DNA of 32,786 bases from Fidelibacterota bacterium TCS56 (GTDB taxonomy: Bacteria > Fidelibacterota > Marinisomatia > Marinisomatales > TCS56). Made by a program: the position numbers and the translations under genes. Where the stretch lies: assembly GCA_001577055.1 (NCBI GenBank), contig LSCG01000023.1, positions 1 to 32,786 of the forward strand, given 5' to 3'. The notes under the pieces were generated by a model that saw only the letters and a program-made list of their open reading frames with translations, had not been told where the DNA came from and did not search any database. Of the stretch, positions 17,924 to 25,048 are shown in pieces (position 1 is the stretch's first letter; each line of letters starts with the position of its first letter).

Positions 17924-20569
17924 ATGGCAGAACACAATCGCAAACGAAAAATATTTATTGCCTTAACGGTAATATTATTACTGCTGGGGGGCGGTTGTCG
18001 CCCGGAAAAACCGGACTTTTCCCTGGTTTTTGAAAAATATGCGCTCGCCAATGGTCTGGAAGTCATCCTGCATCAAGATCACTCCGATCCAATTGTGGCC
18101 GTATCGATTCTGTATCATGTTGGTTCCAGCAGGTAGAAACCGGGAAAAACGGGGCTGGCTCACCTTTTTGAGCATATTATGTTTCAACAATCCCAACACG
18201 TTCCACCGGATCAATTTGTTCATAAAATCCAGGCGGACACACCGATTATGTGATTAATAAATTACTCTATCCCCAGCATCACCCGTATAATTGGCAGGTA
18301 ATCGGATCAATGGCCGATTTACAGGCGGCGTCGCTTGCGGATGTTCACGCCTTTTTCACCAAATGGTATGGACCGAATAATGCCACCCTGGTCATAGCCG
18401 GTGATTTCGATCAACTGCAAGCTAAAACCTGGATTGAGAAATATTTCGGCGAGCTACCAAGCCGGGACCCTGTTAGTGCTCTGCCCACAGAAGCAGTGCA
18501 TTTGGATACCACCAAAAGGTATTATCGTGAGGATAATTTCGCCCCCTCCCCCGAATTAACCATCGTGTTTCCCGTGGCTGAACGCTTTAACGAGGACAGC
18601 TATCCGCTGCGGTTTCTGGGTCGATTATTGTCCCAGGGAAAAAATCACCGCTTTATAAGGTTATTGTCGAAGAACGAAAAATGGCGCCCACAATCAACGG
18701 CTATTATAATGGCAGTGAATTAAGCGGGCAAATGCGCTTTCGTATCCGCACTTTCCCTCAGATTGACCTGAGTGAAGTTGAAGAGGCGGTCTTTGATGCC
18801 TTCAACCGCTTTGAGGAAGCGGGATTCACAGATAAAGATATTGAACGGATCAAAGCCGGAATCGAAACAGAATTTTACAATGGTGTCGCCAGCGTCCTGT
18901 CAAAAGCATTTCAATTAAGCCAATATAATGTGTTCGCCGGTTCACCGGACTTCATCAGACAGGATTTACTGAAATTAAGTTCGGTAAAATCCGCCGATGT
19001 CTGGAAGGTGTATACTAAATATTTGAAAAACAGGCCCTATGTCATGACCAGTTTTGTTCCCCGGGGCAAGCCGGAGCTGGCAGCAGAAAATTCGACCCTG
19101 TTTGAGATCAATGATGCAAAGGCACCTGCCGTTGATGTCGAACAAAGCCTCCCTGAACACTCTGCCACCACCCGCCCCTCCCGGTTCGACCGCTCGGTGG
19201 AACCGGCAGTTGGAATCGTACCGGCATTAACAGTTCCCGAAATCTGGGAGCATGAATATAGTACCGGCCTGAAAATGTACGGAATTGCACAACATGAATT
19301 GCCCTTGATCAATTATATTGTTCGAATAAAAGCGGGGCAGGTGCGGGATAACCCGGAAAAAACAGGGGTGGCCAACCTGATTTCTGACGTAATGATGGAA
19401 GGCACCCTGAGACGCACTCCTCAGAAATTGGAGGAAGCAATACAGGATTTGGGGGCCTCAATTAGCATGTACACCGGTCAGGAGGAAATTACCCTGGAAG
19501 TTAACACGCTGGCTTCCAAGCTTATTGAAACGGTTGAATTGGTACAGGAAATATTATTGGAACCGCGCTGGGATGTTAAGGAATTTGACCGTATCAAACA
19601 GGGGACGATTGAAATTATCAAACGTCGCAACAGCCGGCCGGCCATCATTGCCGATCAGGTTTTCAGGCGTTGTCTGTACGGTAATGACCATATTCTGGGT
19701 CAATCAATTCTTGGTGATTCGTCCTCAGTTGCCGGTCTGACGATTGATGACCTGCGCACATATTACCAGCAATACTTCACCCCACGATTGACCTCGGTAA
19801 CAATCACCGGTGATATTGCCGCCGATTCCGCCATTACGGTATTCAAGTCGTTGGCGGCAAATTGGCCGCGAAAAAAATCAAACTGCCGAAAATCCACATC
19901 CCGCCAGCAGCTAATAAATCCCAGTTGTATATCATCGATATCCCGGGAGCCCGGCAATCAGAGATTCGCGTTGGCAACCAGGGTTTACGGGCCATCGATC
20001 ACGATTACTATCCCGCCCAGGTAATGAATTACAAATTGGGAGCAAGCTTCAACGGTAATATCAACATGGTATTGCGGGAAGAAAAAGGTTACACTTATGG
20101 CGCGCGGACCGAGTTTAACGGTTCGACCCATTCGGGCCATTTCAGAGCCTATACTGCCGTTCGTTCCGATGCTACCATCGAATCAATAAACATCCTGCGC
20201 GATGAGATGCGGAAATACCGGCAACCCGTATCACCAAAAGACTTACAATTCACTAAAGAGGCCTTGATAAAAGCTAATGCCCGGCGCTTCGAGACACTCG
20301 CCGCTCTAATGGGAGTATTAGCTGATATCGCGCGCCATGATTATCCATTCAATTACATCAGCCGGCAGGACCGGATAATCAGGAAAATGACGGTTGGCGA
20401 ACACCATCGGCTGGCGCAAGAATATATTGATCCCGGCCGGATGATTTACCTGGTGGTCGGTGATGGCGAATCCCTGCTATCCGGACTGGAAAATCTAGGA
20501 TTGGGTCAACCGATTTTCCTGGACACCAATGGTCGTAAGATTAATCCCCAGTTTAACCTTTGCTACTAA
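17924..20569 (+). pseudogene. Decayed M16 (insulinase-type) zinc protease lipoprotein
   Basis: The remains of a roughly 900-residue M16 protease can be followed through three frames. The first part has a lipoprotein signal with lipobox LGGGC and FEKYALANGLEVILHQDHSD. A TAG at 18134-18136 precedes KPGKTGLAHLFEHIMFQ, which contains the inverted zinc motif HLFEH (18161-18175). Near 18230-18250 the sequence jumps to INKLLYPQHHPYNWQVIGSM, so the segment that normally carries the third zinc ligand is missing. Frame is lost again at the A run 18639-18644 and at 19871-19877; one extra A in each would restore it (SQGKK-SPLYKVIVEERKM; PRKK-IKLPKIHIPP). The second M16 domain runs to 20569. With an internal deletion the product could not be an active protease. 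Confidence 0.9.
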
Positions 20570-22312: not shown

Positions 22313-23461
22313 ATGAAATTTGATACGAAAATAATCCACGCCGGAATCGAACACGACCCCACCACCGGCGCTATTATCCCACCGATTTACCAGACCACAA
22401 CCTTTGCCCTGGATGAGATTGGCCATGATAAAGGCTTTGATTACACCCGTTCAGCCAACCCGACCCGGCAGGTACTGGAGACTAATCTGGCCGCCGTTGA
22501 AGGTGGCCGGTACGGCATTTGTTTTGCCAGTGGCATGGCAACGGTGGACAGTTGTACCAAATTACTGAGTTCAGGAGATCACATCGTCTGTTCGGATGAT
22601 GTCTATGGTGGTGTTTCCCGTCATTTCAATTTCATCCTGGCACGGTATGGCCTTTCATTTTCTTACGTGGACACTTCCAATCCGGATAAGGTAATGCAGG
22701 CCATTCGTCCAAATACCAAAACGCTCTGGATTGAAACGCCCACCAACCCGCTGCTGAAAATCACCGATTTGGCGGCCATGGCGGAAATCGCCCGCCAACA
22801 TGAATTGCTTTATGTGGTTGACTCAACTTTCGCTTCGCCCTGCTACCTGCGACCATTGGAGTACCAGGCCGACCTGGTAATTCACAGCACCACCAAATAC
22901 CTCAGTGGCCACAACCAGATCATCGGCGGCATCGTGATAACCAATCGTGAAGATTTATCGGATCAATTAAAATTCGTGCAAAAAACCATCGGCGCCGTAC
23001 CCAGTCCTTTTGATTGCTGGCTTACCCTGATGGGGATCAAAACCCTGCATCTGCGCATGCCCCGTCATTCTGGTAACGCCCTGGCAGTTGCTGATTTTCT
23101 GGCTGAACACCCCAAAGTGGCACGGGTCATTTATCCCGGATTGCCCAGCCATCCCCAACACCAAATTGCATCTCGCCAAATGGACGGATTCAGCGGCATG
23201 ATCTCCTTCGAGCTCACCGGGGGCATTCCGGCCGGACGTCAATTGATGAATTCCATCCGTCTGTGCGCTCTGGCCGAGAGCCTGGGAGCGGTTGAATCGA
23301 TGATCACCCACCCGGCGACCATGACCCATGCCGAGGTTCCCCGGGAGGAGCGGGTTGCCAGGGGATTAACTGACGGTCTGGTGCGCCTATCAGTGGGAAT
23401 TGAGGATTTAGATGATATAATTGGTGATCTGAAACAGGCCCTGGACCGGGTCGATGAATAA
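22313..23461 (+). CDS. metB: Cystathionine gamma-synthase / gamma-lyase type PLP enzyme
   Basis: This 382-residue enzyme belongs to the Cys/Met-metabolism PLP family and acts in transsulfuration between methionine and cysteine. Blocks seen: IIPPIYQTTTFALDE, DYTRSANPTRQVLE, FASGMATVDS, DDVYGGVSRHF, WIETPTNPLLKI, VVDSTFASP and the PLP lysine Lys195 in HSTTKYLSGHNQIIGG; the C-terminus has SLGAVESMITHPATMTH and VRLSVGIED. GGAAG precedes the ATG. Synthase and lyase activities are not separable from motifs alone, so the symbol is tentative. It is 48 bp upstream of the HesB-like gene, and a shared transcript linking cysteine supply to a Sec- or Fe-S-related protein is plausible. Confidence 0.9.
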   Translation: MKFDTKIIHAGIEHDPTTGAIIPPIYQTTTFALDEIGHDKGFDYTRSANPTRQVLETNLAAVEGGRYGICFASGMATVDSCTKLLSSGDHIVCSDDVYGGVSRHFNFILARYGLSFSYVDTSNPDKVMQAIRPNTKTLWIETPTNPLLKITDLAAMAEIARQHELLYVVDSTFASPCYLRPLEYQADLVIHSTTKYLSGHNQIIGGIVITNREDLSDQLKFVQKTIGAVPSPFDCWLTLMGIKTLHLRMPRHSGNALAVADFLAEHPKVARVIYPGLPSHPQHQIASRQMDGFSGMISFELTGGIPAGRQLMNSIRLCALAESLGAVESMITHPATMTHAEVPREERVARGLTDGLVRLSVGIEDLDDIIGDLKQALDRVDE

Positions 23462-23509: not shown

Positions 23510-23797
23510 ATGACGATTACTGACACAGCCCACTTACAGTTAACCGAAATGATAGAACAGCCGGAAAACACCGGTAAACATATTCGCGTATTCAGCCGTG
23601 GATTCGGCTGAGGCGGCCCGCGGCTCGATCTTGCTCTGGATGAGCAGAATGAATCCGATTCCCAGGTAGATATTGACGGTATTAAGGTAATTTTCGAACC
23701 CTATCTGGAGATGTTTACCAGGTCAATTAAAATTGATTTCCGCCAGGATCCCATCTGGGGCAGCGGATTTTTTATTGGCACTGATTACGACTGTTGA
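23510..23797 (+). CDS. HesB/IscA-like selenoprotein (in-frame UGA as selenocysteine 34)
   Basis: From the ATG at 23510 to the TGA at 23795-23797 there is one continuous 96-codon frame broken only by TGA at 23609-23611 (codon 34). The product is MTITDTAHLQLTEMIEQ..., then IRVFSRGFG-U-GGPRLDLALDE, VDIDGIKVIFEP and WGSGFFIGTDYDC. This is the HesB/IscA-like fold (PF01521 type), and GFG-[U/C]-GGP is the signature of HesB-like selenoproteins, which carry Sec where relatives carry Cys. A stem-loop begins 11 nt after the UGA. The family's role is undefined; IscA relatives carry Fe or Fe-S clusters. The Shine-Dalgarno is poor (AGGAA lies about 20 nt upstream). A simple nonsense mutation is the alternative, but the position and hairpin argue against it. 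The sel genes are not in this window. Confidence 0.85.
23612..23645 (+). promoter_or_regulatory. Candidate bacterial SECIS element
   Basis: After the UGA comes an 11-nt spacer (23612-23622), then a hairpin: stem GCTCGATC (23623-23630), loop TTGCTCT (23631-23637), stem GGATGAGC (23638-23645). The stem has two G-U pairs and one A-A mismatch. The 11-nt spacing equals that of the E. coli fdhF SECIS minihelix, and bacterial SECIS elements lie inside the coding region right after the Sec codon. The apical loop holds a G, though not the fdhF-type GGU, so SelB recognition is inferred rather than seen. Confidence 0.6.
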
Positions 23798-23872: not shown

Positions 23873-25048
23873 ATGCATCATGATGTCATCATTGTGGGAG
23901 CCGGCCCGGCCGGGTCGGCGGCCGCCATTACCCTGGCACGGGAAGGTGTTGATGTTTTATTGATCGATCGCGAGCGATTTCCCCGGGATAAAGTCTGCGG
24001 CGACGGATTACTCCCCGGCTCAATAAAATTGCTCAATCAGCTTGGTCTGGCCGATCATTTTCAGTCAGCTGGCTTTAACCAAATTAATCGTGCACTGGTA
24101 ATATCACCTGAGGACAAGGCACTGGCCATCGCAATGAATCCCCGCGAGGCGGATACGGCTTTCTACATTGCTCCGCGCTACGAATTCGATGCCATTATCC
24201 AGCAGCAGGCCGTGATGGCGGGAGCACGGTTCCTGCGCGCCAATGTCCATTATCCGCTGATTGAATCGGGCCGCGTGAAGGGGGTGGAAGTTATCCAGTC
24301 CGGGATAAAAAAAAGCTACCGTTCCAGATGCTTGATTGGCGCTGACGGTTCCAGTTCCACCATGGCAAAAATTCTGGCTCCCAAAACTCACAATCGCCGG
24401 CGGCGTATCCTGTGGCGGCGGGGGTATATCACCGGATTGGAATTTGATCATCGACAGGTTGAATTTTATTTTCTCAAGGAAATCGCCCCCTGCGGGGCCT
24501 GGATTTTTCCCGTCAGCGAAACCAGCGCCAATATCGGCCTGGGACAATATCTGGTTGACTATGATCCGCGCAAGCAGTCGCTGAATGACCTGCTGGCAAT
24601 GTTTTTAAAGCACCCGCGGATCAGGCCGCGGTTGCATAATGACTATGCCATAACCAACCGACGCAGCTGGTATTACCATCTGGCCGGCTGGCGTATGCCG
24701 GCGGTGGCCTTCGATGGCGCAGTATTGGCCGGTGACGCCGCTTCATTTCTGGATCCTTTCAGCGGAGAAGGAATTCACAATGCCCTCCATTCGGGCATTA
24801 TTGCCGGGGAGATTATTTCCCGAGCCCTGGAGACCGGTGACTGCTCACGTCAACGATTAATGAAATACCAGGCCAGGTGCCAACGGGAAATCTATCGGAT
24901 CATTCGCCGTTCACTGCTGATTCGCAAGAGCTATGAGTTGTTTCCGGGACAGGTGGAAAAATGGTTTGAGCGCATTAATATGCCAACTTCGCTGGCACAT
25001 AAATTCTTCAACAGAATATCCACTAATTTTGAATTCACCGGCGCCTGA
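23873..25048 (+). CDS. Geranylgeranyl-reductase-family FAD-dependent oxidoreductase
   Basis: This 391-residue flavoprotein has the Rossmann start DVIIVGAGPAGSAAAITLAR and LLIDRE, the family motif FPRDKVCGDGLLPG, and the second FAD motif VLAGDAASFLDPFSGEGIHN with Gly287-Asp288. It belongs to the geranylgeranyl reductase / ChlP-like family that saturates isoprenoid double bonds in lipids, quinones or pigments; related enzymes are also halogenases or epoxidases. The stop overlaps the CruF-type gene by one base (TGATG), so the two are coupled and the substrate is likely an isoprenoid or carotenoid. The C-terminal basic, tyrosine-rich region (CQREIYRIIRRSLLIRKSYE) is usual for the family. Confidence 0.9.
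   Translation: MHHDVIIVGAGPAGSAAAITLAREGVDVLLIDRERFPRDKVCGDGLLPGSIKLLNQLGLADHFQSAGFNQINRALVISPEDKALAIAMNPREADTAFYIAPRYEFDAIIQQQAVMAGARFLRANVHYPLIESGRVKGVEVIQSGIKKSYRSRCLIGADGSSSTMAKILAPKTHNRRRRILWRRGYITGLEFDHRQVEFYFLKEIAPCGAWIFPVSETSANIGLGQYLVDYDPRKQSLNDLLAMFLKHPRIRPRLHNDYAITNRRSWYYHLAGWRMPAVAFDGAVLAGDAASFLDPFSGEGIHNALHSGIIAGEIISRALETGDCSRQRLMKYQARCQREIYRIIRRSLLIRKSYELFPGQVEKWFERINMPTSLAHKFFNRISTNFEFTGA

Follow-up and report, generated by a model that had tools for sequence, protein, structure and literature searches.

A HesB-like selenoprotein gene in Neomarinimicrobiota whose in-frame UGA is almost certainly decoded as selenocysteine

An otherwise open reading frame with one TGA in its middle raises the question of whether this codon marks the end of a decayed gene or is translated. 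The frame considered here lies in the window, i.e. the whole stretch of 32,786 nucleotides that was analysed from Fidelibacterota bacterium TCS56, an uncultured bacterium of marine origin (Table 1). We propose that it almost certainly encodes a HesB-like selenoprotein, the internal UGA being decoded as selenocysteine (Sec), and that the gene would for this reason be overlooked by standard gene finders. The evidence from the sequence makes incorporation of Sec at codon 34 very likely.

Table 1. Position of the HesB-like selenoprotein gene, its elements and its neighbours in the window.
Feature	Coordinates	Strand	Remarks
HesB-like selenoprotein CDS	23510..23797	+	96 codons including stop, 95 residues, Sec at 34 (predicted), terminal TGA 23795-23797
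UGA codon, very likely read as Sec34 (UGGP = UxGP motif)	23609..23611	+	codon conserved across relatives
SECIS-type hairpin	stem 23631-23636/23642-23647, apical loop TGGAT 23637-23641	+	covariation, spacing, bSECIS constraints
Cystathionine gamma-synthase-like gene, upstream neighbour	22313..23461	+	named by sequence inspection
Geranylgeranyl-reductase-like FAD oxidoreductase (flavoprotein) gene, downstream neighbour	23873..25048	+	named by sequence inspection

The interrupted frame and its relatives

The frame reads as the preliminary description had it, with a single internal TGA placed between GFG on its 5' side and GGP on its 3' side, and the other two frames of the same interval are rich in stops. 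It starts 48 nt past the stop of the cystathionine gamma-synthase-like gene, with no clear Shine-Dalgarno motif seen upstream, and the interval up to the flavoprotein gene is otherwise empty. There is no shown functional link between the cystathionine gamma-synthase-like gene and the HesB-like gene, the former being missing between an HU-like gene and hesB in the relative G002. The adjacency of the HesB-like gene to the flavoprotein gene is retained in all three family members seen, and its neighbours vary from family to family, so that they give no functional lead beyond this within-family adjacency. Elsewhere on the forward strand of the window, a peptidase M16-like gene (18681-20569, named by sequence inspection) seems to be broken up into two frames that overlap (18681-20024 and 19862-20569), as if by a frameshift or through faulty assembly.

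Searching 245 genomes from this phylum revealed one in-frame TGA at the matching codon in 10 other genomes (G002, G003, G008, G013, G027, G039, G182, G061, G207 and G218), which include members of other families and classes; the named records of close relatives belong to Candidatus Neomarinimicrobiota. The motif is GFGUGGP in eight of the ten, the exceptions being GYGUSGP in G207 and GIGUGGP in G218. The protein is 63% identical to that of G002 and 59% identical to that of G013, and in pairwise comparisons between these two genomes and the present one, pS amounts to 0.57-0.90 vs 0.19-0.31 for pN, before as well as after the TGA, with third codon positions the most variable. These values point to purifying selection acting on both flanks of the TGA and, together with a profile match that spans the whole frame (NF038090, see below), they uphold the earlier claim that the coding signal continues past this codon. 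In the aligned relatives, this column holds either Sec (TGA) or Cys, as anticipated; the codon is TGT (Cys) in the Firmicutes relatives, namely those from Peptococcaceae and Desulfitobacterium (loci L079 and L080).

An interrupted frame would also be seen if an IscA-like gene were decaying into a pseudogene and the premature stop were genuine, and broken copies do exist in two relatives: that of G001 (L011 410-710) has an extra TGA, a TAG and a TAA and has lost its start, and in that of G047 (L055, around 1501-1700) a deletion between two TGGATGA copies has destroyed the frame. The frame described here is nevertheless intact apart from its TGA, pN lies well under pS on both sides, and the identical codon recurs in the ten genomes listed above, across families and classes, which renders decay very improbable in the present case. 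The two broken copies do indicate that the selenocysteine-encoding gene (HesB-Sec) is dispensable. In G001, the flavoprotein gene is present twice next to the decayed gene, and the genome still holds selA and tRNA-Sec. In G047, one TGGATGA copy is situated at the Sec codon and the other at the SECIS loop, and the deletion takes out the 5' arm of the SECIS stem. An error of sequencing or assembly, by which a Cys codon (TGY) would have become TGA, might be suspected in a draft of 161 contigs, but the ten other genomes with TGA at the matching codon were assembled independently, and the probability of such an error is negligible.

The stop-free matches read out in relatives are of the canonical IscA/SufA/ErpA type, having GGC(S/A)G as well as CGC or CSCG at the C terminus, and are thus paralogues; in G008 and G013, a canonical A-type protein is present besides HesB-Sec.

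Selenocysteine machinery and the hairpin downstream of the UGA

The preliminary description implied a Sec machinery in this organism, and the genome (1.94 Mb, 88% complete) does contain the full set of selA, selB, selC and selD by which a bacterial selenoprotein gene is judged. The tRNA-Sec scores 69.2 bits and is called by ARAGORN as tRNA-SeC with anticodon tca, selA (498 bits) adjoins selB (344 bits), and selD reaches 394 bits (L045 1501-2430, G000:C51). The latter carries an in-frame TGA of its own, within HGSGUACKIG, and the genome therefore holds at least two selenoprotein genes. The sel genes, a second selenoprotein gene and a frame conserved in relatives with Sec or Cys at the column are thus all present, their absence having been named beforehand as counter-evidence. 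Within the order, selA is above cut-off in 48 of 61 genomes (the present one and 60 relatives); in family f15, whose genomes are reduced (0.8-1.0 Mb), it is absent together with tRNA-Sec and the TGA gene. Six further TGA-bearing genomes were tested, all of which contain selB and three of which contain a tRNA-Sec; the latter was not found in G003, G039 and G218, all of them drafts with selB.

A SECIS-type hairpin, which the preliminary description did not include, is located within the 48-nt fold that begins at the UGA (TTGCTC-TGGAT-GAGCAG, 23631-23647). Its loop of 5 nt, its stem of 6 bp with an outer U-G pair, the G at loop position 2 and the spacing of 25 nt all lie within the constraints given for bSECIS elements, which are a loop of 3-9 nt, a stem of 4-16 bp, a G in the first two loop positions, a spacing of 16-37 nt and an MFE of at most -7.5 (PMC13188914); the MFE of the 48 nt from the UGA is -14.9 vs this last limit. 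Across 11 sequences, the stem is paired in 93.9% of cells, two of its pairs vary on both sides (GC, UA, CG and GU in one, GC, GU and AU in the other), and the covariation score is 0.397 vs a shuffled mean of 0.186, a level reached by none of 500 shuffles, with slid-hairpin controls at 0.112 at most. The codons CTG GAT GAG beneath the hairpin are identical in 9 of the 11 sequences, AT-rich relatives included, although in six of those genomes CTG is rare among the codons for Leu (0-14%, as estimated from small codon samples). When all 48 nt are folded, other pairings are preferred at minimum energy in several relatives, although the hairpin does form on its own. An Rfam search of the hairpin yielded no meaningful hit, only a chance match to one snoRNA. 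We propose that SelB would bind the mRNA hairpin immediately downstream of the UGA and, with tRNA-Sec, would allow the codon to be decoded as selenocysteine.

Coding that continues past an in-frame TGA is also what would be expected if UGA were reassigned, for example to Trp or Gly, or plainly read through. This is extremely improbable, given that, by a mechanical count of the window's 25 long ORFs, eight have TGA as their stop, as does the HesB-like gene itself, that the matching column is Cys in homologues from other phyla, and that the genome combines tRNA-Sec, selA, selB and selD with a covarying SECIS-type hairpin; decoding as Sec remains by far the preferred reading.

In a Peptococcaceae MAG, the Cys-form HesB-like gene (L079 3100-3140) retains the hairpin TGGCTC-TGGAT-GAGTCG, probably a SECIS remnant that followed a Sec-to-Cys change. 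It resembles the SECIS-like remnant reported for D. hafniense (PMC1794560).

Family placement, predicted fold and possible role

If the TGA is translated as Cys, the read-through frame as a whole matches the NCBIfam models NF038090 IscA_HesB_Se (1.6e-15, 57.3 bits) and TIGR00049 (7.1e-11), and the protein also matches TIGR01911 HesB_rel_seleno (3e-8, 34.2 bits), the ErpA model being also among the matches; Pfam PF01521 matches at 2e-5, slightly below its cut-off. The curated cut-offs of the two HesB-Sec models are 85 bits for NF038090 and 66.35 bits for TIGR01911, and both are missed. NF038090, PF01521 and an IscA fold concur in the homology to the A-type/HesB domain, and U34-G-G-P37 corresponds to the motif UxGP given for HesB-like selenoproteins (PMC13188914). 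The protein is filed as a divergent branch of this family, outside the two curated models. It shares with the members covered by those models the Sec in UxGP, the A-type fold, the exchange between Sec and Cys and the SECIS-type hairpin after the UGA, but differs in its scores, in its host and in having Cys as last residue. The Cys-form proteins of Peptococcaceae and Desulfitobacterium have GFGCGGP at the matching column, with Cys instead of Sec.

The AlphaFold2 model, built from seven sequences with Cys substituted for Sec, has a pLDDT of 89 and a pTM of 0.76, and its top PDB matches are IscA (1r94 and 1x0g leading, IscA being matched both with and without its [2Fe-2S] cluster), HI1723 and SufA. 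Sec34 aligns to the first ligand Cys of the IscA/SufA/ErpA family, whose place in the cluster site it would occupy. The predicted fold is the same as that of these carriers, whereas their three-ligand pattern C-x(n)-C-G-C is absent: the C-terminal region reads GSGF...DYDC where they have CGC, leaving Sec34 and Cys95, the last residue. All seven proteins of alignment A1 (the present one and six others) end in Cys, and more distant members terminate in Cys, Cys-Cys or CSC. From the missing CGC pair and the C-terminal Cys we infer a dimer with selenolate and thiol as functional pair; tentatively, the Sec34 selenolate and the C-terminal thiol might bind an Fe-S cluster or a metal, or might serve as a redox pair.

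A second A-type protein was not found in this genome, at its 88% completeness. It could be surmised that the HesB-Sec clade of Neomarinimicrobiota has a function of its own, as an A-type protein with two ligands (Sec34 and the C-terminal Cys), which, in some lineages including this one, would be the only A-type carrier of the genome and do the carrier job with selenium, but we consider this unlikely. The HesB-like selenoprotein of M. maripaludis has been labelled with 75Se, and a mutant in which it is disrupted remains viable and able to fix nitrogen (PMC11097638).

Novelty and significance

HesB-like proteins already appear in a 2006 table of 25 selenoprotein families of bacteria, in a study that noted changes from Sec to Cys; Sec forms are known from Deltaproteobacteria, Clostridia and Symbiobacterium (PMC1794560) and from Methanococcus (PMC11097638). 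The word "unrecognised" used in the preliminary description is consequently justified with regard to gene calling and the NCBI HMM cut-offs, but not for the family and its Sec form, which were already known (PMC1794560, PMC13188914). As this kind of gene has been known for some 20 years and the protein falls in a known selenoprotein family, with relatives among the iron-sulphur cluster carriers, it is a further, well-supported case of something already described. The novelty is one of place: a divergent branch below both HesB-Sec cut-offs, in Neomarinimicrobiota. A literature search among open-licence papers found none on HesB-Sec in Marinimicrobia.

The present analysis adds a gene that would be missed by ordinary annotation and by the curated NCBI models of HesB-Sec. 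It shows that this phylum, which is uncultured and mostly of marine provenance, has kept the Sec trait and, with it, a HesB-like gene that bears a SECIS. The new sequences could be used for extending the HesB-Sec HMMs, and the genomes in which HesB-Sec is the sole A-type protein found would provide a test case for the function of HesB-like selenoproteins.
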